DNA of 64,000 nucleotides from Chitinophaga lutea (GTDB lineage Bacteria > Bacteroidota > Bacteroidia > Chitinophagales > Chitinophagaceae). Every line of letters starts with the position of its first letter. The first letter of the stretch is position 1. The stretch is taken from contig NZ_RPDH01000001.1 of NCBI RefSeq assembly GCF_003813775.1, forward strand, positions 2,666,001 through 2,730,000, read 5' to 3'. The notes below the pieces were generated by a model. The model made no database searches, was not told where the DNA came from, and worked only from the letters and a program-made list of their open reading frames with translations. Shown piece by piece: positions 33,036 to 46,324 of this stretch. Made by a program: the position numbers and the translations under genes.

Positions 33036-34052
33036 TTATTTCACAAAAAGGTTCACGACAAAGAACACCCCGGCCGCCAGCAGTGCACTGATGGGGATGG
33101 TCAGTATCCAGGCCCAGAGCAGGTTGACGGTAACGCCCCACCGAACGGCCGACAGCCTTTTGGTAGCGCCCACCCCGATGATGGAGCCGGTGATCGTATG
33201 GGTGGTGCTCACCGGGATACCGAAGCTCTCCGTCAGGTACAGCGTGAGGGCGCCGGCTGTTTCGGCGCTCACACCTTCCAGCGGGGTTACTTTGGTGATA
33301 CGGGTGCCCATCGTTTTAACGATTTTCCAGCCGCCACTGAGCGTACCCAGGCCGATGGCGGTGAAACAGGCGAACGGCACCCAGTCCGGCACGTCCTTGA
33401 TGGTGGTAACGCCCTCGATGCCGCCGTGGGCCACCATGGCCGCTGCAATGATACCCATCACCTTCTGGGCATCGTTACCGCCGTGGCCAAGGCTGAATGC
33501 GGCAGACGATACGAGTTGCAGGCGTTTGAACCAGTTGTCGGCCCGGTAAGGATTGGCTTTTTTACAGATGTTCACGATCAGTACGGTAATGAGGAAAGCC
33601 ACCACCATGCCGATAAAGGGCGCCAGTACGATGAAATACACGGTAGGCAGCACCTTGGCGTAGTTGATCACGTCGAAAGAACCGCCGGCATTGGCCACCG
33701 CGGCGCCGATGAAGCCCCCGATCAGTGTGTGCGAGGAGCTGGAGGGGATGCCGTACCACCAGGTCAGCAGGTTCCAGGCGATGGCGGCAATCAGGCCGGA
33801 GAAAATCACTTTCAGGGTGATGAACTGCTCAAATACGGATTTGGCAATCGTATTGCCCACTTTAAACTCCCCGTAAATGTATTTGGAAACAAAGAAGGCC
33901 GCAAAGTTGAACAACGCCGCCCAGAGCACGGCCTGGAAAGGCGTCAGTACCTTGGTGGACACGATCGTGGCAATGGAGTTGGCCGCGTCGTGGAAACCGT
34001 TGATATAATCAAAAATGAAAGCCAGTATGATGATAATTACAAGAAAGACCAT
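33036..34052 (-). CDS. PiT family inorganic phosphate transporter
   Basis: The 338-aa membrane protein has about 9 helices and the two PiT signature regions: DYINGFHDAANSIATIVSTKVLTP near the N-terminus (in parts: GFHDAANS) and LGHGGNDAQKVMG in the middle, plus GIPVSTTHTITGSIIG near the end. PiT carriers import phosphate with protons or cations, usually at low affinity. It lies 23 bases after a DUF47 gene, its usual partner, and opens the phosphate-related region of this window. Confidence 0.94.
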   Translation of the reverse strand: MVFLVIIIILAFIFDYINGFHDAANSIATIVSTKVLTPFQAVLWAALFNFAAFFVSKYIYGEFKVGNTIAKSVFEQFITLKVIFSGLIAAIAWNLLTWWYGIPSSSSHTLIGGFIGAAVANAGGSFDVINYAKVLPTVYFIVLAPFIGMVVAFLITVLIVNICKKANPYRADNWFKRLQLVSSAAFSLGHGGNDAQKVMGIIAAAMVAHGGIEGVTTIKDVPDWVPFACFTAIGLGTLSGGWKIVKTMGTRITKVTPLEGVSAETAGALTLYLTESFGIPVSTTHTITGSIIGVGATKRLSAVRWGVTVNLLWAWILTIPISALLAAGVFFVVNLFVK

Positions 34053-34075
34053 GACAGGATGTTATTTCGCTTCTA

Positions 34076-34726
34076 CTATGCGTATTTGATAATAATGGTT
34101 TCTATCACATTGGCGGAATCTTCACATTTGTCTGTGGCAATTTCCAGCGCCTGATAGATTTCACGCATTTTTATCAGCTCCACGGCATTGCTCTCCTGCT
34201 CGAAAAGGTCGGCAATGGCACGGTCATAGATATCGTCGGCATGGTTTTCCAGGCTGTTGATCTTCACGCAGGCATCGGTGATCACCCGCATGTTGGCCAT
34301 GTTGCGCAGCTCGGGAATGGCCCGTGACAGCTCCACCGTACCCTGGTAAATCAGGTCGGCCAGTTTGCGCACGCTGTCGGTCATGGTCGTTACTTTATAA
34401 ATGTCGATACGTTTGGCGGAACCGTGGATGTAGTCAGCCACGTCATCCAGCGTGGCTGCCAGGTAGTGAATGTCTTCCCGGTCAAAAGGGGTAATGAAGT
34501 TCTGGCCCAATTCAACGAAAATACGATGGGTATAGTCATCGTTCTTGTGCTCGAGCCGCTCGATCAGGTGCACTTTATCCTTGCGGACCTGGGGATCGTT
34601 TGTTTCCACCAGCTCCGTCAGCACTTTCCCCATCTCTACCAGGTTTGCCGCAACATCCTCGAAAAGTGAATAAAACACCCGGTCTTTAGGCATGAACAGT
34701 TTGACAATCGAATTAAAGCCTCCCAT
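34076..34726 (-). CDS. DUF47 (PhoU-like) phosphate transport accessory protein
   Basis: The 216-aa soluble helical product matches DUF47/Pit accessory proteins: LFMPKDRVFYSLFEDVAAN at the start, RLEHKNDDYTHRIFVELGQNFITPFDREDIHYLA in the middle (in parts: TPFDREDIHYL), and a C-terminal EIATDKCEDSANVIETI. These helical-bundle proteins are PhoU relatives that accompany PiT transporters and are thought to modulate them. It is the first gene of the DUF47-Pit unit, divergent from the metallophosphoesterase gene at 34959. Confidence 0.92.
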   Translation of the reverse strand: MGGFNSIVKLFMPKDRVFYSLFEDVAANLVEMGKVLTELVETNDPQVRKDKVHLIERLEHKNDDYTHRIFVELGQNFITPFDREDIHYLAATLDDVADYIHGSAKRIDIYKVTTMTDSVRKLADLIYQGTVELSRAIPELRNMANMRVITDACVKINSLENHADDIYDRAIADLFEQESNAVELIKMREIYQALEIATDKCEDSANVIETIIIKYA

Positions 34727-34800: not shown

Positions 34801-34856
34801 TTAATAATTTGGTAACACTGGATTAATATAAAAGTAATATAGCAATTTTTCCTTTG
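34801..34856 (+). promoter_or_regulatory. candidate PhoB-type box array and promoter (array A)
   Basis: Four half-sites exactly 11 bp apart: TTAAT 34801, GTAAC 34812, TTAAT 34823, GTAAT 34834. A -7-like element TTCCTTTG (one mismatch to TAnnTTTG) starts at 34849, 15 bases after the start of the last half-site. It would drive the metallophosphoesterase gene at 34959 with a ~95-base leader. Confidence 0.65.
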
Positions 34857-34958
34857 TGTTGCCTCCCGTACCGTGAAATAATGAAAATCATATAAGTAAC
34901 AAATTGTATTTGAAAAAGTTCTGTCAACAGTACGGGCCGGGCTTAATGCAACAAAATA

Positions 34959-35786
34959 ATGAGCGGTAAACGACCACTAGACATACTTGTCATATCCGAT
35001 GTACACCTCGGCATTTACGGCTGCCATGCGAAAGAACTGGCCAATTACCTCGACTCGGTAGACCCCAGGGTGCTGATCCTCAACGGGGATATCATCGACA
35101 TCTGGCAGTTCAGCAAACGGTATTTCCCGAAGTCCCATACCAAGGTTATCCGCCGCATCCTCAAAATGATCGGGAAAGGCACGGAGGTCTATTACCTCAC
35201 AGGCAACCACGACGAAGCCCTGCGTAAATACGCCGGCTTCGGGCTCAGCAATTTTGTGATCGACAACAAGCTCATCCTGGAAGTGGACGGCAAAAGGCAC
35301 TGGTTTTTTCACGGGGACGTGTACGATATTACCATGAAAAACTCTAAATGGCTGGCAAAACTCGGTGGGAAGGGGTACGACATCCTCATCATCCTCAACC
35401 GCCTCGTGAACCACATGCTCGAAAAAATGGGCCGGGAAAAAATGTCGTTTTCCAAAAAGGTGAAGGAAAGCGTGAAGCAGGCCGTGAAATTCATCTCCGA
35501 TTTTGAGCAGACCGTGGTGGAAATTGCGGTAGACAAAGAGTTTGATGTGGTATGCTGCGGTCATATCCACCAGCCGATTATCAAAAACATGGAATTCAAC
35601 GGTAAAATGGTGACCTATCTCAATTCCGGCGACTGGGTGGAAAGCCTCACCGCGCTCGAATACAGCCATGGCAGCTGGCAGTTGTACCAGCACGCGGCGG
35701 GCAAAAAGGAGGCCGTGACGGAGGAGGAAGACGAGCAACTGAACGTGGCGGAATGGGCCGTTGCCAGTAAAGTCATCAATTTTTAA
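34959..35786 (+). CDS. PlcP-like metallophosphoesterase (LpxH-related)
   Basis: The 275-aa calcineurin-like phosphoesterase has all metal-binding motifs: Asp14/His16 (SDVHLG), Asp44 (NGDIID), Asn83/His84 (GNHDEA), His118 (FHGD), His202/His204 (GHIHQP). Automated pipelines would call it UDP-2,3-diacylglucosamine diphosphatase. Several segments (the GCHAKEL start, PKSHTKVIRRILK, GNHDEALRKYAG, the late NSGDWVESLTALEY) instead recall PlcP, a phospholipase C-type enzyme induced by phosphate starvation in rhizobia and marine bacteria that removes the head group of membrane phospholipids. The Pho-type array upstream supports that role. No signal peptide is seen. Substrate remains to be shown. Confidence 0.75.
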   Translation: MSGKRPLDILVISDVHLGIYGCHAKELANYLDSVDPRVLILNGDIIDIWQFSKRYFPKSHTKVIRRILKMIGKGTEVYYLTGNHDEALRKYAGFGLSNFVIDNKLILEVDGKRHWFFHGDVYDITMKNSKWLAKLGGKGYDILIILNRLVNHMLEKMGREKMSFSKKVKESVKQAVKFISDFEQTVVEIAVDKEFDVVCCGHIHQPIIKNMEFNGKMVTYLNSGDWVESLTALEYSHGSWQLYQHAAGKKEAVTEEEDEQLNVAEWAVASKVINF

Positions 35787-35794
35787 CCCATCTC

Positions 35795-35850
35795 TTCATA
35801 ATTAGATAATCTACCATTAATATTTAATTAACGCCCTGATCGTAAGTTTG
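35795..35850 (+). promoter_or_regulatory. candidate PhoB-type box array and promoter (array B)
   Basis: Half-sites TTCAT 35795, ATAAT 35806, TTAAT 35817 and TTAAC 35828 are exactly 11 bp apart. The perfect -7 box TAAGTTTG starts at 35843, 15 bases after the start of the last one, and the gene at 35871 begins 20 bases after the box. Confidence 0.7.
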
Positions 35851-35870
35851 GTAAACCAGCATGAATTTAG

Positions 35871-36266
35871 ATGAAGACGCTCAAGCTACACCCTTTAATG
35901 ACCATTTCCTTATTACAGATGCAGATTCAACGGTTGCTACATTGTAATGCTACGGTCTATATACACCACTCCCTCGCAGGGGCATTCAACACCCTGCGCG
36001 ACGCGGGACTGGAAGAAAATGTGATGATAGAACATCCTATCGACGAAACCCTCAGCCTCCGCGAATTTGAAGAGGAGCTGGAAGAAAAGTTCAATTTTTC
36101 GCTGGAGCTGTGCAACAAAGACTCGAAGCCGTTCACCAACAAAAGTCTCCGCCTGTTCCAGATCACGCCTTGCAGCAACGATGCGGACGCCCGGCAACTG
36201 GACATTTCACTGGAGCTCCTGGCCCGCCAGGGAAAAGGGAACAGCCAGCAGAACAGGGCGGTGTGA
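35871..36266 (+). CDS. unknown 131-aa protein in the candidate Pho regulon
   Basis: I do not recognise this family. The product is soluble, without signal peptide or membrane helix. The first ~45 residues mix hydrophobic and His/Cys residues (MTISLLQMQIQRLLHC), followed by an acidic helix (SLREFEEELEEKFNF, about 62-76) and a polar C-terminus. It contains three Cys (residues about 25, 81 and 100) but no CxxC pair. It follows the PlcP-like gene by 84 bases and has its own canonical promoter with a four-site 11-bp array, which indicates regulation by phosphate. A small regulator or enzyme accessory protein is possible, but this is a guess. Confidence 0.65.
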   Translation: MKTLKLHPLMTISLLQMQIQRLLHCNATVYIHHSLAGAFNTLRDAGLEENVMIEHPIDETLSLREFEEELEEKFNFSLELCNKDSKPFTNKSLRLFQITPCSNDADARQLDISLELLARQGKGNSQQNRAV

Positions 36267-36432
36267 GGTAAACAGGAAGATGAATAACCATCCATATCCG
36301 GCGAAGACACCCGATGAAAACCGATATCTCCTTGCTGCCGCCATCCAGGCCGGCAATCAGAGCGGTTCGCTCAAATCCTTGCTGCTACCCGTTTTGCCCT
36401 CAAGAGTTGCTCCCTTTAGCGCCCCTGCGGTG

Positions 36433-36517
36433 TTAACGATTCTTTAATGATTTCTTAACAATTAACATTCTGGTAATATTGGCTTAACAATGCGGTAATA
36501 GGGCCACGGTAGTTTTG
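36433..36517 (+). promoter_or_regulatory. candidate PhoB-type box array and promoter (array C, seven half-sites)
   Basis: Proximal set: TTAAC 36462, GTAAT 36473, TTAAC 36484, GTAAT 36495, all 11 bp apart, with the perfect -7 box TAGTTTTG at 36510, 15 bases after the start of the last site. Distal set: TTAAC 36433, TTAAT 36444, TTAAC 36455, also 11 bp apart but shifted by 7 bp relative to the proximal set. It precedes the TonB-dependent receptor gene. Confidence 0.75.
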
Positions 36518-36538
36518 CGGCATAAATAGAAACAGATC

Positions 36539-39289
36539 GTGAAACGTACCATTACACTTTTATTTGCTTTAGTATTGATTGGCCTGACTGGTTTTGCCCA
36601 ATCCGGCGGAAAAATTACCGGCAAGGTGACCGATAAAAGATCGGGAGAAGCGCTCATCGGGGTAACCGTGCTCGTGCAGGGAACATCCCTGGGTGCGGTA
36701 ACCGACGTGGAAGGACGCTATACGCTGAACGTTCAGCCCGGCACTTATACCTTATTATATAAACTGATGGGCTACCAGACCAAGTCCATCGCCGACGTAG
36801 TGGTAAAAGGCGGACCGGCCGCTACACAGGATGTGGTGCTGGACGAGCCCAAATCCCAGGACCTGAAAGAATTTGTGGTGAAAGGTTCTGCCCGCACAGA
36901 AACCCTGAACGCGCTGCTGACCTTCCAGAAAAATACCAACACGGTGGCCCAGGTGGTATCGGCCGAGTCGATCAAAAAATCCCCGGACCGCAACACCAGT
37001 GAAGTGCTGAAACGTGTTTCCGGCGCCTCCATGCAGGACGGTAAGTTCCTAGTAGTAAGGGGTCTGGCCGACCGCTATAACCAGGCTACCATCAACGGCG
37101 CCCTGCTGCCCAGCACAGAGCCGGACAGGAAGTCTTTCGCATTCGACATTTTCCCTTCATCCATTATCGATAATATCATTATTAACAAAGCGGCCACCCC
37201 GGAAATGCCCGGCGAGTTCGCCGGCGGCCTGGTGCAGATCAACACCAAAGACGTACCGGACAACAACTTCCTGCACATGACAGTGGGTAGCGGCTTCAAC
37301 ACCCGCACCATCGGGAAAGACTTCCATACCTATAACGGCGGCAAGCTCGACTTCCTCGGCATTGACGACGGCCGCAAACTGTCGTCCGTTTTCCCTTCCA
37401 CCGGCGACCTGCGTTCTTCTACCGCGGCTGCAAGAGCGGAATACGGCCAGCTGCTGAGTGATGTGTGGAGCACCAACACCAACAGCGCTCCCCTCAATAC
37501 CAATTTCCAGGTGAGCGGCGGTTTCAGCAGCAAACAAAGCGCATCCAAAGGATTCGGCGGTGTGTTCGGCCTGAGCTATAATAAACAGAACAGGCTCGTG
37601 AACATCAACCGCAATTATTATGAGCTCGACGGCAGTCCCCGCTTTAACTACAGCGACCTGCTGAGCAGCCAGAACGTATTGCTGGGCGGTATCGCCAACC
37701 TGACTTACCGCTTAGGCAACAGCAAATTCAACTGGAAGAACTCCTACAGCATCAACAGTAACGACCAGACGACCATCCGTAACGGAGAGGACATCGATGG
37801 CGACATCCGCTACGGCATCCGCAGCCAGGAACTGAGCTTCGTGTCTAACCGCCTGTACAACACCCAACTGGTGGGCGACCACTTCATCCGCAACGGCAAC
37901 TACCGCATCCGCTGGAACGCCAACTACGCGCTGATGAAACAGGACATGCCCGACCTGCGCAGGCTGAAATATACCTCCGTAAACGGTGGCGAGTATTTCG
38001 TGAACGTGCCGCACAACACCGGTGCCCCGAGAAATGCCGGCCGTTTCTATTCCAACCTCGATGAGAACATCTACGGCGGTTCCGCCGATATCGCCAAAAC
38101 CTTCAAATGGCTGGGTAACCAGCAGCAGGTGAAGGTAGGTGGCCTGTTCCAGCGTAAAGACCGTAATTTCCATGCAAGAGCGCTGGCCATCATCCGCGGC
38201 AGCCAGAGCGAAGACCTGATCTACCTGAGCCCCGATAAGATCTTCGCCAAGGAAAACTACGGCGCGGAGAAATTTTATCTCGACGACCTCACCGGTAACT
38301 CAGACAGCTATAAAGCGTTCTCCAACCTCGGCGCAGGCTTCCTCCAGTTCGACAACCAGTTCGGGGAAAAATGGCGCCTCGTGTGGGGTGTGCGCGTGGA
38401 ATACTTCCTGCAGAACCTGCAGTCGCTCAACACCAACGCGATCGAAAATACTTCTACCGACGTATTGCCGTCGCTGAACCTGACCTACCTGGTCAACAAC
38501 AAAACCAATATCCGGTTCTCCGCTTCACAAACCGTTGCCCGTCCGGAGTTCAGGGAAATTTCTCCCTTTAACTTCTACGACTTCGAAAGAAACGGTATCG
38601 TGTTCGGTAACAATACCCTCACCCGTACGAAAATCACGAACGTAGACGCGCGGTATGAGCTTTATCCCAACCCGGGCGAGGTGCTGACCTTCGGTGCGTT
38701 CTTCAAATATTTCGAGAACCCGATCGAAACCAACTACGAAGCACAGGGCACGCCTTCGTTCTCTTACCAGAACGCCAAAAGCGCTACCAGCCTTGGTGTG
38801 GAACTGGAGTTCAGGAAAAACCTCGGGTTTATTGAAGAGGGTTTCCTCGAAAAGCTGACCGCTTTCTCCAACGTAGCGGTGATCAAAAACGAAGTGAAAT
38901 TCCCGAAAGGATTTGCTGGGGTGCGCAACAGGCCCATGCAGGGCCAGTCGCCTTACGTGATCAATGCCGGCCTGCAGTTCGACGATCAGAAATCAGGTAC
39001 CAACGCTTCCGTACTGTTTAACGTGATCGGCAAAAGGATTGCCCAGGTGGGTAACTCCGACTTCCCGGACGTTTGGGAAAACCCCCGTCCGATCCTCGAC
39101 TTCCAGATCACACAGCGCCTGTTTTCCAATGCGGACCTGAAGTTCACCGTGTCCGACATGCTCTCGAAGAGCAGCGTGTTCTACTGGGAGCGGAACGACA
39201 ACAAAAAGTACGATACGTCCAAAGATCTCGTGATCAACAAATTCAACTTCGGGACCAACGTTGGCGTGCAGTTCAGCTACCGTTTCTAG
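36539..39289 (+). CDS. TonB-dependent outer-membrane receptor, candidate phosphate-regulated
   Basis: The 916-aa product has a signal peptide (LFALVLIGLTGFAQ), a carboxypeptidase-like regulatory domain (about 24-112), a plug domain (about 125-240, with LVVRGLADRYNQATINGA) and a large beta barrel ending GVQFSYRF. TonB-dependent receptors pull scarce ligands across the outer membrane. The start is a GTG at 36539; no ATG fits the signal peptide. No SusD-like gene follows; the next gene encodes a predicted beta-helix lipoprotein instead. The upstream Pho-type array and the neighbouring PhoB/PhoR-like genes suggest a phosphorus-containing ligand, but the ligand is not known. Confidence 0.88.
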   Translation: MKRTITLLFALVLIGLTGFAQSGGKITGKVTDKRSGEALIGVTVLVQGTSLGAVTDVEGRYTLNVQPGTYTLLYKLMGYQTKSIADVVVKGGPAATQDVVLDEPKSQDLKEFVVKGSARTETLNALLTFQKNTNTVAQVVSAESIKKSPDRNTSEVLKRVSGASMQDGKFLVVRGLADRYNQATINGALLPSTEPDRKSFAFDIFPSSIIDNIIINKAATPEMPGEFAGGLVQINTKDVPDNNFLHMTVGSGFNTRTIGKDFHTYNGGKLDFLGIDDGRKLSSVFPSTGDLRSSTAAARAEYGQLLSDVWSTNTNSAPLNTNFQVSGGFSSKQSASKGFGGVFGLSYNKQNRLVNINRNYYELDGSPRFNYSDLLSSQNVLLGGIANLTYRLGNSKFNWKNSYSINSNDQTTIRNGEDIDGDIRYGIRSQELSFVSNRLYNTQLVGDHFIRNGNYRIRWNANYALMKQDMPDLRRLKYTSVNGGEYFVNVPHNTGAPRNAGRFYSNLDENIYGGSADIAKTFKWLGNQQQVKVGGLFQRKDRNFHARALAIIRGSQSEDLIYLSPDKIFAKENYGAEKFYLDDLTGNSDSYKAFSNLGAGFLQFDNQFGEKWRLVWGVRVEYFLQNLQSLNTNAIENTSTDVLPSLNLTYLVNNKTNIRFSASQTVARPEFREISPFNFYDFERNGIVFGNNTLTRTKITNVDARYELYPNPGEVLTFGAFFKYFENPIETNYEAQGTPSFSYQNAKSATSLGVELEFRKNLGFIEEGFLEKLTAFSNVAVIKNEVKFPKGFAGVRNRPMQGQSPYVINAGLQFDDQKSGTNASVLFNVIGKRIAQVGNSDFPDVWENPRPILDFQITQRLFSNADLKFTVSDMLSKSSVFYWERNDNKKYDTSKDLVINKFNFGTNVGVQFSYRF

Positions 39290-39294
39290 AAGAA

Positions 39295-39350
39295 TTAATG
39301 AATAATTAAGATAGTGTTCACAATCGCATAATACAGTAACCTGAATTTTG
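39295..39350 (+). promoter_or_regulatory. candidate PhoB-type box array and promoter (array D, degenerate)
   Basis: TTAAT 39295, TTAAG 39306, TTCAC 39317, ATAAT 39328, each 11 bp apart, then GAATTTTG (one mismatch to the -7 box) at 39343, 15 bases after the start of the last. The next start codon is at 39370. The sites are weaker than in arrays A-C. Confidence 0.5.
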
Positions 39351-39369: not shown

Positions 39370-40797
39370 ATGAAAAGAAGCTTGTTCGCTTTATTTGTTT
39401 TAGCAACGATTATCATTTCCGCCTGTTCCAAAAACAATAACCCGGCACCGAATCCCGGTGGCAACACGGAGTCTGACACGTTGAAGGGCGCTATCTCTGC
39501 CAACAGAACGCTGAAAGCCGGCAAAATTTATTATATCAACGGCCCTGCCGTTGTAAAAAATGGTGTTACGCTGACCATCGAGCCCGGTGTAGTGATCAAA
39601 GGTATCAAGAGCGGTACCGTGAAAGCGGTGCTCATCGTGGCCAGAGGCGGTAAAATCATGGCTGAAGGCACTGCCAGCAAGCCCATCGTATTCACCTCCA
39701 ACCAGGCTGCAGGCACAAGGGCTGCGGCAGACTGGGGTGGTGTTGTAATCCTCGGTAAAGCGAAAGTGAACTCTACCTTCGGCGGTACTCCCGGCAGAAA
39801 ACAGGTGGAAGGTTTCCTTACCTCTGAGATCCAGGACCTCGGTGATGATATCGTAGGTGGTGGTGACGACGACAACGATAACTCCGGTGTTTTCAAATAT
39901 GTTCGTATCGAGTTTGCAGGTATGGCATTATCCGCCACGCCGAACACCGAGTTGAACAGCCTCACTATGATCGCCGTAGGTAAACAGACCAAGATCGAAT
40001 ACGTACAGTGCTCTTTCGGCGGCGACGACGCTTTCGAGTGGTTCGGCGGTACCGTGAACGCGAAGAACCTTATTTCTTTCCGTACACTGGACGACGACTT
40101 TGATACAGACAACGGTTTTACCGGCCGCGTACAGTTCGGTGTGGCCATCCGCGATAAAGACGTTTCCGACTTCGCGCTGCCCGGTACTTCCAACAGCTTC
40201 GAATCGGATAACGACGCAGCTGGTTCCGATAACGTACCTTTCACTGCGCCTGTGTTTTCAAACATGACCATCGTTGGCCCCTGGGCGATCAACGGCGGCA
40301 CCGGTATTCCTTCCAACAACGTATTCGGCCGTGGCGCGCACATCAGGCTGAATTCCCGCCAGTCGCTCTACAACTCCGTTGTAGTTGGTTTCCCCACCGG
40401 TATCTATATCGATGGTGACAAATCAGCCGACGCTACCGCAGCAGAACTGGACATCCGCAATACTTTCGTAGGCGTCGCTTCCAAAAAGAAACTGGACAGC
40501 AAGCTGACCGCTTCTACGCTGAACATCAATACCTGGTTCATGAACAACCGCGGTAACGATACCACCTACAACAACGTAGACGATTTCAAATTCGCGAAAA
40601 TAAAAGACCTGACCTCGCTGGCCGGTATCGACGTGCGCCCCGTTGCAGGTTCTCCGCTGCTGGGTAAAGCTGCCTTTACCGCAGGTAAATCCACCGACGC
40701 ATATTTTACCAAAGTAACCTACGTAGGTGCGCTCGACGTGAACGATGCATGGATGAACGGCTGGACCAACTTCGATCCCAAAAACGCCAGCTACTAA
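39370..40797 (+). CDS. lipoprotein, predicted right-handed beta-helix, partner of the receptor
   Basis: The 475-aa product has a lipoprotein signal (LATIIISACS, Cys19) and a low-complexity Asn/Pro linker. The body shows repeating short strands and Gly/Asn turns typical of a parallel beta-helix: GVTLTIEPGVVIKG, GGKIMAEGTASKPIVFTS, WGGVVILGKAKV. An acidic loop (DDIVGGGDDDNDNSG, about 160-175) could bind metal. Similar proteins in Bacteroidota are often given misleading names such as multidrug transporter; nothing supports that. It follows the TonB-dependent receptor by 80 bases with a candidate Pho-type promoter in between and probably acts at the cell surface with the receptor. Confidence 0.75.
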   Translation: MKRSLFALFVLATIIISACSKNNNPAPNPGGNTESDTLKGAISANRTLKAGKIYYINGPAVVKNGVTLTIEPGVVIKGIKSGTVKAVLIVARGGKIMAEGTASKPIVFTSNQAAGTRAAADWGGVVILGKAKVNSTFGGTPGRKQVEGFLTSEIQDLGDDIVGGGDDDNDNSGVFKYVRIEFAGMALSATPNTELNSLTMIAVGKQTKIEYVQCSFGGDDAFEWFGGTVNAKNLISFRTLDDDFDTDNGFTGRVQFGVAIRDKDVSDFALPGTSNSFESDNDAAGSDNVPFTAPVFSNMTIVGPWAINGGTGIPSNNVFGRGAHIRLNSRQSLYNSVVVGFPTGIYIDGDKSADATAAELDIRNTFVGVASKKKLDSKLTASTLNINTWFMNNRGNDTTYNNVDDFKFAKIKDLTSLAGIDVRPVAGSPLLGKAAFTAGKSTDAYFTKVTYVGALDVNDAWMNGWTNFDPKNASY

Positions 40798-42349: not shown

Positions 42350-43666
42350 ATGAGAATTACGCGAATACTACTGTTGGCTGGATTGGGTTTGTTTATGTCG
42401 GTAACGGCCCGGGCGCAGTTCCTGATGGATATGATCGATACCTCTACCAGCCTGGGCAAGGGCATGATTTCCATTTATAAAAAATTCGACCACCTGCGCA
42501 TCAGCGGGTACATGCAGCCCCAGTTCCAGTACGCGTCTCACAAAGGCATCGACAGCTACAGCGGCGGGGATTTCGGCAGCCAGTCAGACAACCGTTTCAT
42601 GCTGCGTCGCGGCCGTGTTCGTTTCGACTACGCGCATTTCAATAAAAGAAACCTCCCTACGGTGCAGTTCGTATTCCAGTTCGACGGTACCGAGCGGGGC
42701 GTGAACATCCGCGACTTCTGGGGCCGCGTGTTCGACGGGCAGTGGGATATCATGGCCCTTACCATGGGTATGTTCGCCCGTCCGTTCGGCTATGAGGTGA
42801 ACCTTTCCTCCGGCGACCGGGAGGCGCCGGAAAGGGGCCGTATGTCGCAAATACTGATGAGAAGCGAGCGCGACATGGGGGGCATGCTCACCTTCGAGCC
42901 CCGCGCGCTGGACCATCCGCTGCACTGGCTGAAAATGGATGTGGGTCTGTTTAACGGCCAGGGCCTGAGCGGGCCTGCCGACTTCGACAGTCACAAAGAC
43001 CTTATTGCCCGTGTAGCGATGAAACCCACGAAACTGGGGATAGGAGGCTGGAAACTCTCCGCCGGCGCCTCTATCCTGTACGGCGGCATGGAGCAGTTCA
43101 CCCCGGAGATTTACCAAATGGAAGACGGTAAACCTGCCTTCCGGCGGGATTCTGCGGCCGCCAACATAGGCAGGATAGCGCCGCGCCACTATTACGGCGG
43201 CGATGCGCAACTGGTGATCCCTAACAGAAAGGGCCTCACCCAGTTCCGGGCCGAATACATCCGCGGGGTGCAAACCGCCACCCATCTTGATACCGAGACG
43301 CCGGGCGTTGTTCCCCTGCGTTCTGCGGGATTCGCGCCGCTTTATATCCGCGACTTCGACGGTGCCTATCTGTCCTTCCTCCAGCATCTTGGCAGCGAAA
43401 AACACCAGCTGGTGCTGAAATACGACTGGTACGATCCCAACACCAAAGTAAAAGGTCGCCAGATCGGAAGTCCGCTGGCGACCAGTCTTTCGAAAGCCGA
43501 TATCCGTTTTGATACGTTCGGGTTCGGGTACGTGTATTATTTCAACGAAAACATGAAAGCTACCTTCTGGTTCGACCGGGTGTGGAATGAAGCCACGGCG
43601 CTGGAAGAGTTTGCGGACGATATTCCGGACAATGTGTTTACCGCCAGGTTGCAATACCGGTTCTGA
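42350..43666 (+). CDS. OprO/OprP-type phosphate-selective porin
   Basis: The 438-aa product has a signal peptide (LLLAGLGLFMSVTARAQ) and a beta barrel with the family segments FMLRRGRVRFDYAHF, FVFQFDG and GMFARPFGYEVNLSS, ending in FTARLQYRF with a terminal Phe. This is the porin O/P family; in Pseudomonas the members OprP and OprO take up phosphate and polyphosphate. Selectivity in Bacteroidota members is not established. Its place two genes from the PhoR/PhoB-like pair supports a phosphate role, although no Pho-type array was found in front of it. Confidence 0.88.
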   Translation: MRITRILLLAGLGLFMSVTARAQFLMDMIDTSTSLGKGMISIYKKFDHLRISGYMQPQFQYASHKGIDSYSGGDFGSQSDNRFMLRRGRVRFDYAHFNKRNLPTVQFVFQFDGTERGVNIRDFWGRVFDGQWDIMALTMGMFARPFGYEVNLSSGDREAPERGRMSQILMRSERDMGGMLTFEPRALDHPLHWLKMDVGLFNGQGLSGPADFDSHKDLIARVAMKPTKLGIGGWKLSAGASILYGGMEQFTPEIYQMEDGKPAFRRDSAAANIGRIAPRHYYGGDAQLVIPNRKGLTQFRAEYIRGVQTATHLDTETPGVVPLRSAGFAPLYIRDFDGAYLSFLQHLGSEKHQLVLKYDWYDPNTKVKGRQIGSPLATSLSKADIRFDTFGFGYVYYFNENMKATFWFDRVWNEATALEEFADDIPDNVFTARLQYRF

Positions 43667-45413: not shown

Positions 45414-46103
45414 TCACATCTCAAACTTGTACCCCACGCCCTTTACAGTGGTGATGAGGTCTACGCCCAGCTTCTGGCGTATCTTGCGGATATGCACGTC
45501 GATGGTACGGTCGCCCACGATCACTTCGGTGCCCCATACCTGGTTGAGGATTTCGTTGCGGAGGAATACGCGGCCCGGCTTGGAGGCCAATAACTGCAAC
45601 AGTTCGAATTCTTTCTTGGCAAGGATGATTTCCACCCCTTTATAGGTGACGGTGAATTTTTCGCGGTCAATCACCAGGTCGCCCAGGTGCAGTTGCTGCT
45701 CCTCCACTTTGTTGAGGCGGCGGAAAAGGGCGTTGATGCGGCTTACCAGCAGTTTGGGTTTGATGGGCTTGGCGATGTAATCGTCTGCCCCCATGTTCAG
45801 CCCCTCGATCTCGCTCTTCTCGTCATTGAGCGCGGTGAGGAAAAGCACCATGGTTTCCTTGAACTCCGGCAGTTTACGGATTTCTTTACAGGTGTCGATG
45901 CCATTTTTGTTGGGCATCATGATGTCCAGCATAATCAGATCCGGCCGGAAGATCTTCGCCTTCTGGATGGCTTCGCTGCCGTCTTTGGCCGTCACTGTTT
46001 CATAACCCGCGCTCCGGAGATTGTAACTTATGATTTCCAGGATATCCGCCTCGTCATCCACTACAAGAATTTTACCTACTGCTACTGCTGGTTCCATCAA
46101 CAT
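45414..46103 (-). CDS. phoB: PhoB-like OmpR-family response regulator
   Basis: The 229-aa product has a receiver domain (10-128) with phospho-acceptor Asp60 in MLDIMMP, the acidic pair in VVDDEAD, the Thr/Ala switch region and the conserved Lys in YIAKPIKP. A winged-helix DNA-binding domain follows (about 135-228) with ELLQLLASKPGRVFLR and DVHIRKIRQKLG. This is the OmpR/PhoB architecture. Such regulators bind direct repeats with 11-bp spacing, which is the spacing of the arrays found in front of four nearby genes. The pair with the PhoR-like kinase makes PhoB the best name. Confidence 0.87.
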   Translation of the reverse strand: MLMEPAVAVGKILVVDDEADILEIISYNLRSAGYETVTAKDGSEAIQKAKIFRPDLIMLDIMMPNKNGIDTCKEIRKLPEFKETMVLFLTALNDEKSEIEGLNMGADDYIAKPIKPKLLVSRINALFRRLNKVEEQQLHLGDLVIDREKFTVTYKGVEIILAKKEFELLQLLASKPGRVFLRNEILNQVWGTEVIVGDRTIDVHIRKIRQKLGVDLITTVKGVGYKFEM

Positions 46104-46125: not shown

Positions 46126-46133
46126 CAAAATTA
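46126..46133 (-). promoter_or_regulatory. -7 box for the phoB-phoR unit
   Basis: The minus strand reads TAATTTTG (TAnnTTTG). In the register of the Pho-type arrays, the two distal sites read TTAAC (from 46181) and ATAAT (from 46170), but the two proximal sites do not match. Confidence 0.45.
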
Positions 46134-46324
46134 AACAGCGCTTTCCCGTTTAATGAAATGATAACATTATGTAATTGTTAATTCAGGCCCTCACCCGGCT
46201 GCAAGATACGCATTTGCGCGCGGTTACAGCCAGCAAGGCCCGCAGAGCATTGGTATGATGTATTTTTTAAATTAGAATTAAGAATAATGGGACTGCCGGC
46301 TTGTGTATTCGGAATAATTGGTAG

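Follow-up and report, generated by a model that had tools for sequence, protein, structure and literature searches.

Arrays of four half-sites with 11-bp steps at a phosphate locus of Chitinophaga lutea: probable Pho boxes of the Bacteroidota

Arrays and genes of the locus

A stretch of 64,000 nucleotides from the Bacteroidota species Chitinophaga lutea (contig NZ_RPDH01000001.1, positions 2,666,001 to 2,730,000; hereafter the window) carries four promoters in which four half-sites of five letters follow one another in steps of 11 base pairs (bp), ahead of a −7 box of the form TAnnTTTG. These arrays were analyzed here as putative Pho boxes, i.e., as sites of a PhoB-type regulator in front of phosphate genes. 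A preliminary description of this DNA had placed their first half-sites (x) at 34801, 35795, 36462, and 39295, and all sixteen half-sites that it gave were correct in both coordinates and letters when the sequence was read. Both strands of the window were scanned for four [TGA]T[AC]A[TCG] units at every period from 6 to 17 bp, which returned these four as the sole four-unit rows with an 11-bp period; the other periods gave none. All four lie on the + strand, and each is located 5′ of a gene. The bit scores given below were obtained with a profile (R1) derived from a gap-free alignment of 24 sites from 10 genomes of the genus; the four window sites are among these 24, so that their scores are in-sample. 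The arrays and the boxes read from the sequence behind them are as follows.

34801..34838, + strand: half-sites TTAAT/GTAAC/TTAAT/GTAAT (34801, 34812, 34823, 34834), promoter of the metallophosphoesterase gene; 39.3 bits
34849..34856, + strand: −7-like box TTCCTTTG, one letter off TAnnTTTG
35795..35832, + strand: half-sites TTCAT/ATAAT/TTAAT/TTAAC, 5′ of the gene for a 131-residue protein; 33.4 bits; conserved
35843..35850, + strand: −7 box TAAGTTTG, exact
36462..36499, + strand: half-sites TTAAC/GTAAT/TTAAC/GTAAT, 5′ of the receptor gene; 44.3 bits, the top match of the 6.6-Mb genome
36510..36517, + strand: −7 box TAGTTTTG, exact
39295..39332, + strand: half-sites TTAAT/TTAAG/TTCAC/ATAAT, 5′ of the lipoprotein gene; 28.4 bits
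39343..39350, + strand: −7-like box GAATTTTG, one letter off

The half-sites are hence direct repeats with the 11-nt period that is expected of a Pho box. The claim that TAnnTTTG begins at x+48 held exactly at 35843 and 36510 and with one deviating letter at 34849 and 39343; TTCCTTTG or TTTCTTTG is also present at most of 18 phosphoesterase orthologues of the genus. The fourth half-site ends 10 bp upstream of the −7 box, and the array occupies the usual position of the −33 element. This is the fixed distance to the core promoter, at the −35/−33 position, that is expected of a Pho box. When the window was shuffled 300 times in 200-bp blocks with its dinucleotides preserved, a mean of 0.013 arrays and a maximum of 1 were obtained per window, as compared with the 4 observed. 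With TTTG at x+52 demanded in addition, 4 were observed and none appeared in any of the 300 shuffles. A chance origin of the arrays was set aside.

The genes of the locus were assigned by family searches as listed below.

33036..34052, − strand: PiT-type phosphate transporter (PF01384 and PF01865 for this gene and the next as a pair)
34076..34726, − strand: PhoU_div partner of PiT; the pair (33036..34726) is divergent from the 34801 array
34959..35786, + strand: metallophosphoesterase, LpxH-like by family and structure search (PF00149/PF12850; NCBIfam LpxH models below cut-off)
35871..36266, + strand: family-less protein of 131 residues, 58–90% identical across the fetched genus loci
36539..39289, + strand: TonB-dependent receptor with a carboxypeptidase-D-like domain (PF00593, PF07715, PF13715)
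39370..40797, + strand: lipoprotein, placed after a TonB receptor as are the FI/FII lipoproteins of Flavobacterium johnsoniae, to which it is likened by gene order (PMC8115612)
44226..45362, − strand: PhoR/PnpS-like histidine kinase (NCBIfam matches below cut-off)
45414..46103, − strand: PhoB-like response regulator, the proposed binder (TIGR02154, 219.8 bits; NF053854, 208.2 bits; both below cut-off)

A PhoB/PhoR-like pair and phosphate genes are thus encoded beside the promoters, as the preliminary description had stated, with the pair falling below the NCBIfam cut-offs; the best scores of the regulator nevertheless came from PhoB models. Structure search with the phosphoesterase product gave LpxH structures at an expectation value (E) of 6e-5 or weaker, and the enzyme is putatively PlcP-like by analogy. 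The PiT–PhoU_div pair lies next to the phosphoesterase gene in every one of the 18 fetched genus loci where that gene is present. The 131-residue protein had no Pfam match at E 0.001, and its AlphaFold model was unusable (predicted local distance difference test score, pLDDT, 40.7). It is conserved and has an array of its own in the genus, and on the basis of its promoter it is a candidate new phosphate-stress protein. The lipoprotein also had no Pfam match, and a search of solved structures gave nothing useful; its relatives occur in at least 513 places of genome contigs. A porin-like outer-membrane protein (42350-43666) adjoins phoBR, showing distant similarity to Porin_O_P (20.7% over 246 residues, E 1.6e-8), with no Pfam match and no profile match upstream of its gene. 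Two further rows of half-sites were found on the + strand of the window.

36433..36459, + strand: three extra half-sites TTAAC/TTAAT/TTAAC in 11-bp steps (36433, 36444, 36455); R1 9.8 bits
40869..40906, + strand: weak row GTAAC/TTCAT/ATAAC/TTAAA at the start of gene 40914 (M57 peptidase; predicted start codon); R1 13.7 bits, E 0.4 genome-wide

The former begins 29 bp upstream of the 36462 array and is 7 bp out of phase with it. Such a second, out-of-phase row before the receptor gene is conserved, as a partial match (E 0.04-0.6 each) abutting the main array on the same strand was found in 17 of 29 related loci.

Arrays in related genomes and the genes behind them

The preliminary description had proposed a comparison of orthologous promoters and a genome-wide scan, and both were performed. 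In the genus, R1 was run on both strands of 29 receptor loci from relatives, most of which matched and keep the array geometry. Nine of the 12 relatives with a + strand receptor (L002, L003, L004, L007, L009, L011, L014, L016, L019) show TAnTTTTG at exactly x+48 behind a high-scoring array; the exceptions are L024, in which the −7 box follows a weaker array, and L022 and L028, which have an array without the −7 box. The spacer letters vary between species while the spaced letters of the array stay, and the consensus half-site of the aligned sites is (G/T)TAA(C/T). Over 40 genus genomes, R1 matched 215 places (E ≤ 5e-4), with every one of the 40 represented by 2 to 9 of them, against a rough expectation of 0.02 from the E-values; at most 24 of these places are training sites, and 30 of the 40 genomes contributed none. 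The phosphoesterase promoter has a site of at least 25 in 18 of 18 genus loci with the gene, none of them in the training set, which is a biased rate because the genus loci were picked by profile match. The same holds at the 131-residue protein gene for 17 of 18 loci; L095 has a site with the gene start unassigned. A site was present at 12 of 14 fetched loci for the receptor orthologue and at 9 of 14 for the lipoprotein. Other targets in the fetched genus loci are other TonB receptors (10) and phytase-like PF13449 proteins (2). Genes for choice-of-anchor I proteins are preceded by sites in three species (L082, L234, and, in C. lutea itself, the weak L058, C1:1073443, E 0.03). In the 6.6-Mb C. 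lutea genome, five places reached E < 1e-3, of which four are the in-sample window sites and one is unlinked, preceding a secreted protein of 157 residues; this pairing recurs in 15 genus genomes, C. lutea included. The 157-residue protein gene (L054:5535-6008 and 14 other genus loci) has the sole strong array of C. lutea outside the window.

The comparison was extended beyond the genus by alignment of the lipoprotein, which yielded 80 loci, nearly all of them labelled Bacteroidota, plus metagenome-assembled genomes (MAGs) of Melioribacter and Kryptonia. Sixty-five were usable (5 lay at a contig edge and 10 had no such receptor), none of which had trained the matrix applied. The promoter of the receptor next to the lipoprotein scored at least 20 in 40 and at least 15 in 51 of these 65 loci, as compared with a single locus on the opposite strand; that one match is plausibly a real divergent promoter. 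Two further tests made no use of the −7 box or of the full profile. When plain (G/T)TAA(C/T) pairs were counted in 51 regions outside Chitinophaga, 54 sense pairs were spaced by 11 bp, 34 by 22 bp, 23 by 33 bp, and 12 by 44 bp, with 0–7 pairs at the other sense spacings except for 10 at 31 bp; the antisense pairs numbered 11 at 11 bp and 9 at 22 bp. For the distance to the core promoter, 48 of 60 receptor promoters outside Chitinophaga reached an array score of 8, and with the array alone as the guide TTTG was found at x+52 in 32 of these 48, as compared with 5 each at x+63 and x+74, i.e., one and two repeats further. Before the lipoprotein itself, no clear 11-bp peak of plain pairs was seen (75 regions of the phylum contained 7 such pairs), and in most relatives the array precedes the receptor rather than the lipoprotein. 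A MAG labelled Melioribacter roseus has a near-perfect array before its receptor (L210:7094-7156, 41.2 bits).

A second profile (R2) was then built from 29 sites, comprising 21 receptor promoters of other loci (8 from 12 named genomes) and 8 genus sites, two of which precede lipoproteins and one the phosphoesterase of the window. Promoters of pstS, phoB, porin, phytase, and acid-phosphatase genes were in the training set of neither profile. R2 gave 74 matches at E ≤ 0.05 in the 12 named genomes, and 20 regions were taken from the stronger ones; examples outside these regions are C. arvensicola C2:2843466 and Sediminibacterium C8:584008. Sites were located before phosphate-selective porins (Rufibacter, Adhaeribacter, and two Pontibacter species), a MauG-type peroxidase (Chryseobacterium), a choice-of-anchor I protein (Hymenobacter), a phytase–PhoX fusion (Taibaiella), and, in Pedobacter, an ECF sigma factor and PhoB; a TonB-type receptor was the only target in three regions. 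The 12 named genomes contain 15 Porin_O_P genes, four of which have a site just upstream, where about 0.003 would be expected by chance on our estimate. In a scan of 197 genomes of the class at E ≤ 1e-5, the 24 matches outside C. lutea include 10 before lipoproteins of the window family, 3 before TonB receptors, 2 before PstS (both over the PstS cut-off), and 1 each before PhoB, Porin_O_P, and a purple acid phosphatase, as well as 2 before short proteins (113 and 130 residues; L258, L265) with a carboxypeptidase-like domain only. The remaining 4 of these 24 matches, strong arrays of four class genomes (L252, L253, L260, L267), precede a porin-like outer-membrane family without a Pfam name, to which the L260 protein is only distantly similar. 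The site thus stands genome-wide before phosphate-acquisition genes, in other genera.

The porin site of the two Pontibacter species heads an operon of pstS, pstC, pstA, and pstB, with phoU seen in L248. In both (L248:8499-14983 and L232:4333-9468), this porin–pst operon is divergent from the receptor–lipoprotein pair, with an array on each side. With the two PstS matches of the class scan, sites before pstS are also present in two other genomes. PstC exceeded its cut-off in 4 of 40 Chitinophaga genomes (L146-L149), as compared with PhoB in 40 of 40, and no PstC did so in C. lutea; in most of the genus, the Pho system operates without Pst. Two PF12849 matches of C. lutea were considered as Pst candidates and rejected, as the better one is not followed by pstCAB-like frames and neither has a position weight matrix (PWM) site above 5 bits.

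The PhoB orthologue is present once per genome in all 40 genus genomes (90–100% identity), and its gene in the window is preceded by a half-array.

46126..46181, − strand: phoB promoter with half-sites TTAAC (46181) and ATAAT (46170) and the box TAATTTTG at x+48 (46133-46126)

The third and fourth half-sites were not matched at this promoter. Its 16-bp core TTAACAATTnnATAAT recurs in 29 of 30 fetched phoB loci of the genus (L116-L145), among which TAnnTTTG lies at x+48 in 8, at x+49 in 18, and at x+47 in 1, and is absent in 2. In most genus phoB promoters, a second TTA-type pair follows the first in another register. Fuller rows are found before phoB outside the genus, consisting of three to four half-sites in Pedobacter (L246, E 0.0016, regulator 59% identical) and of four in another class genome (L256, regulator 53% identical). 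A site is hence located before the regulator gene itself, as would be expected if phoB is autoregulated.

Interpretation of the arrays and rival explanations

The architecture of the arrays, their conservation, their fixed spacing, and the identity of the genes downstream are direct observations. Conservation, spacing, and the downstream phosphate genes together support the Pho-regulon reading of the preliminary description. Phosphate genes are concentrated behind the matches of the genome-wide scan, with the clearest cases outside Chitinophaga (pstS, phoB, OprP-type porins, phytase/PhoX, purple acid phosphatase). Related species retain the sites, which are also kept across the phylum in front of related receptor genes. 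Two outcomes had been named in advance as speaking against that reading, namely a lack of enrichment at phosphate genes and a lack of conservation of the sites, and neither was seen. We therefore consider the arrays very likely to be Bacteroidota Pho boxes, at which PhoB would occupy four half-sites and activate phosphate-scavenging genes under low phosphate. PhoB is probably the binder, activation probably its effect, and low phosphate probably the signal, as judged from the sequences and by analogy with described systems.

In the mechanism that we propose, the PhoR-like kinase would phosphorylate the PhoB-like regulator under low phosphate, and two PhoB dimers would bind head to tail on the four (G/T)TAA(C/T) half-sites in 11-bp steps. 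Bound PhoB would cover the place of the −33 element and would contact or hold the sigma factor from a point 10 bp upstream of the −7 box. Given an array over the −33 place and a last half-site 10 bp from TAnnTTTG, bound PhoB could hold the sigma factor and start transcription. PhoB of E. coli and PhoP of Bacillus touch the sigma factor likewise from their repeats. The genes switched on would serve to scavenge at the cell surface (receptor and lipoprotein) and, provided that the phosphoesterase is PlcP-like, to turn over membrane phospholipids, besides encoding accessory proteins, with the scavenging set elsewhere comprising pst, porins, phytase, and phosphatases. Published low-phosphate induction in F. 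johnsoniae and PhoB–pstC binding in Bacteroides fragilis fit this mechanism by analogy, and low-phosphate induction of the window genes is predicted from the former (PMC8115612).

Several observations weigh against this interpretation. Deletion of PhoPR in Riemerella raises pstS (PMC5399024), and OprP, which sits beside PhoBR in F. johnsoniae, was not induced by low phosphate (PMC8115612). In C. lutea, the strong matches apart from the in-sample window sites come down to the one before the 157-residue secreted protein, i.e., to no clear phosphate gene, the −7 boxes of two of the four window promoters are imperfect, and the half-array of phoB is weak by profile (R1 10.4 bits, E 7.4 genome-wide). 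The phoB −7 box is located at x+49 in most of the genus, one base farther than at the target promoters. In none of the four Pst-bearing Chitinophaga genomes does the pst operon have a four-site array, with no site above 8 bits and one 11-bp pair each, and the pstC promoters of a Phocaeicola (22.0) and a Parabacteroides (3.7) are weak. Only 24 of the 197 class genomes, C. lutea included, match at the strict threshold. Among the 20 regions of the named genomes, two have no PWM site (L237, L239), two lack a gene start over the next 400 bp (L244 and L241, in the latter of which a Na/Pi cotransporter starts approximately 510 bp past the site), and four precede proteins without a clear phosphate role (L236, L238, L242, L245).

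The arrays might alternatively have nothing to do with a regulator, being A-tracts or UP-like elements of AT-rich promoter DNA in helical phase. The half-sites are indeed AT-rich and helically phased, yet rows of four at other periods are absent in the window and shuffles that keep the local dinucleotides give almost none; moreover, the 11-bp pairs are strand-biased (54 to 11), nearly all aligned half-sites 2-4 have C or T after TAA, and the downstream targets are phosphate genes, which makes this explanation highly improbable. We attach practically no weight to recent duplication, by which the four promoters would be alike without selection on their sites. All four do lie within 4.6 kb on one strand; against this, their spacer letters and flanks differ, between species the spaced letters stay and the spacers change, and unlinked genes of other genera have the same geometry. 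The cross-genus spacing spectrum by itself already disfavours it.

A third alternative retains the phosphate regulon and changes the binder: the element would be bound by another regulator of the OmpR family, e.g., an ArcA- or RprY-like one, with PhoB acting indirectly. Candidates are numerous, as a PhoB query returned 61-150 first-look candidates of the OmpR type in genus genomes, and only 11 of the 40 genomes have phoBR near the receptor locus; furthermore, the Riemerella PhoP motif was described as ArcA-like (PMC9603813). Set against these points, phoB is the only response-regulator gene seen behind an array, with the half-array in the window and the genus and rows in Pedobacter L246 and in L256, and pst expression in B. 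fragilis requires PhoB, which binds the pstC promoter there (PMC3547664). We hence judge another binder to be unlikely and retain PhoB as the probable one.

Relation to known Pho systems

The PhoP box of B. subtilis consists of TTAACA repeats, in fours. Its half-site is nearly identical to the one described here and its period is equal; the phylum, the promoter core, and the target genes are different. The pho box of E. coli PhoB likewise consists of tandem 11-nt direct repeats before phosphate genes (PMC4415409), and a strict spacing to the core promoter is expected for it (PMC10294691). It differs in its CTGTCAT consensus, which the aligned sites do not fit, and in its usual unit of two half-sites, as compared with four (G/T)TAA(C/T) half-sites and the −7 box TAnnTTTG here. 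Species are known to differ in the consensus of their pho boxes (PMC4415409).

Within the phylum of the window regulator, PhoP of Riemerella anatipestifer has a similar motif, the most conserved letters of which are TTTAACA and which was likened to that of ArcA; it differs in its 583 peaks and broad regulon, and is likened to the window PhoB by motif only; the portions covered give neither its repeat spacing nor its distance to a −7 box (PMC9603813). In F. johnsoniae, PhoBR sits beside a TonB receptor and a lipoprotein of the present kind, and low phosphate induces PlcP, phytase, PhoX with MauG-like, and FecR/ECF sigma genes, as in the kinds found here; a search of that source found no Pho box, promoter, or binding site (PMC8115612). 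B. fragilis PhoB belongs to the same phylum, and no motif is given in the covered portions of PMC3547664. Pho boxes near plcP were identified bioinformatically in marine bacteria, in a study that includes the flavobacterium Dokdonia, with the letters of the motif and the flavobacterial genes bearing a box unspecified in the portions covered (PMC4796936). Apart from Riemerella TTTAACA and these unspecified plcP boxes, no described operator motif of a Bacteroidota PhoB was found in the open literature searched, most subscription journals lying outside it. The window arrays are very probably a Bacteroidota form of an already known type of Pho box, with the motif itself undescribed in that literature.

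It is possible, and suggested here only tentatively, that the whole phylum, together with at least one neighbouring lineage (the Melioribacter MAG, L210), has used one Pho operator of four (G/T)TAA(C/T) half-sites in 11-bp steps, ending 10 bp short of the −7 box, ever since their common ancestor. Being close to the Bacillus PhoP box, the TTAAC form of this operator may predate the CTGTCAT form of E. coli. On the same tentative view, the Pst-less Chitinophaga would run PhoR–PhoB without a Pst–PhoU sensor, presumably sensing phosphate via the PiT–PhoU_div pair divergent to the array.

Bacteroidota are important for phosphorus turnover in soil, sea, and gut, and their low-phosphate genes are known from expression studies. 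With a defined operator of fixed geometry, the members of the Pho regulon could be recognised from genome sequence throughout the phylum. The arrays would also place the families of the 131-residue and 157-residue proteins in the phosphate response. Furthermore, the array promoters would be natural test cases for how a PhoB-type activator works with the unusual primary sigma factor of the Bacteroidota.

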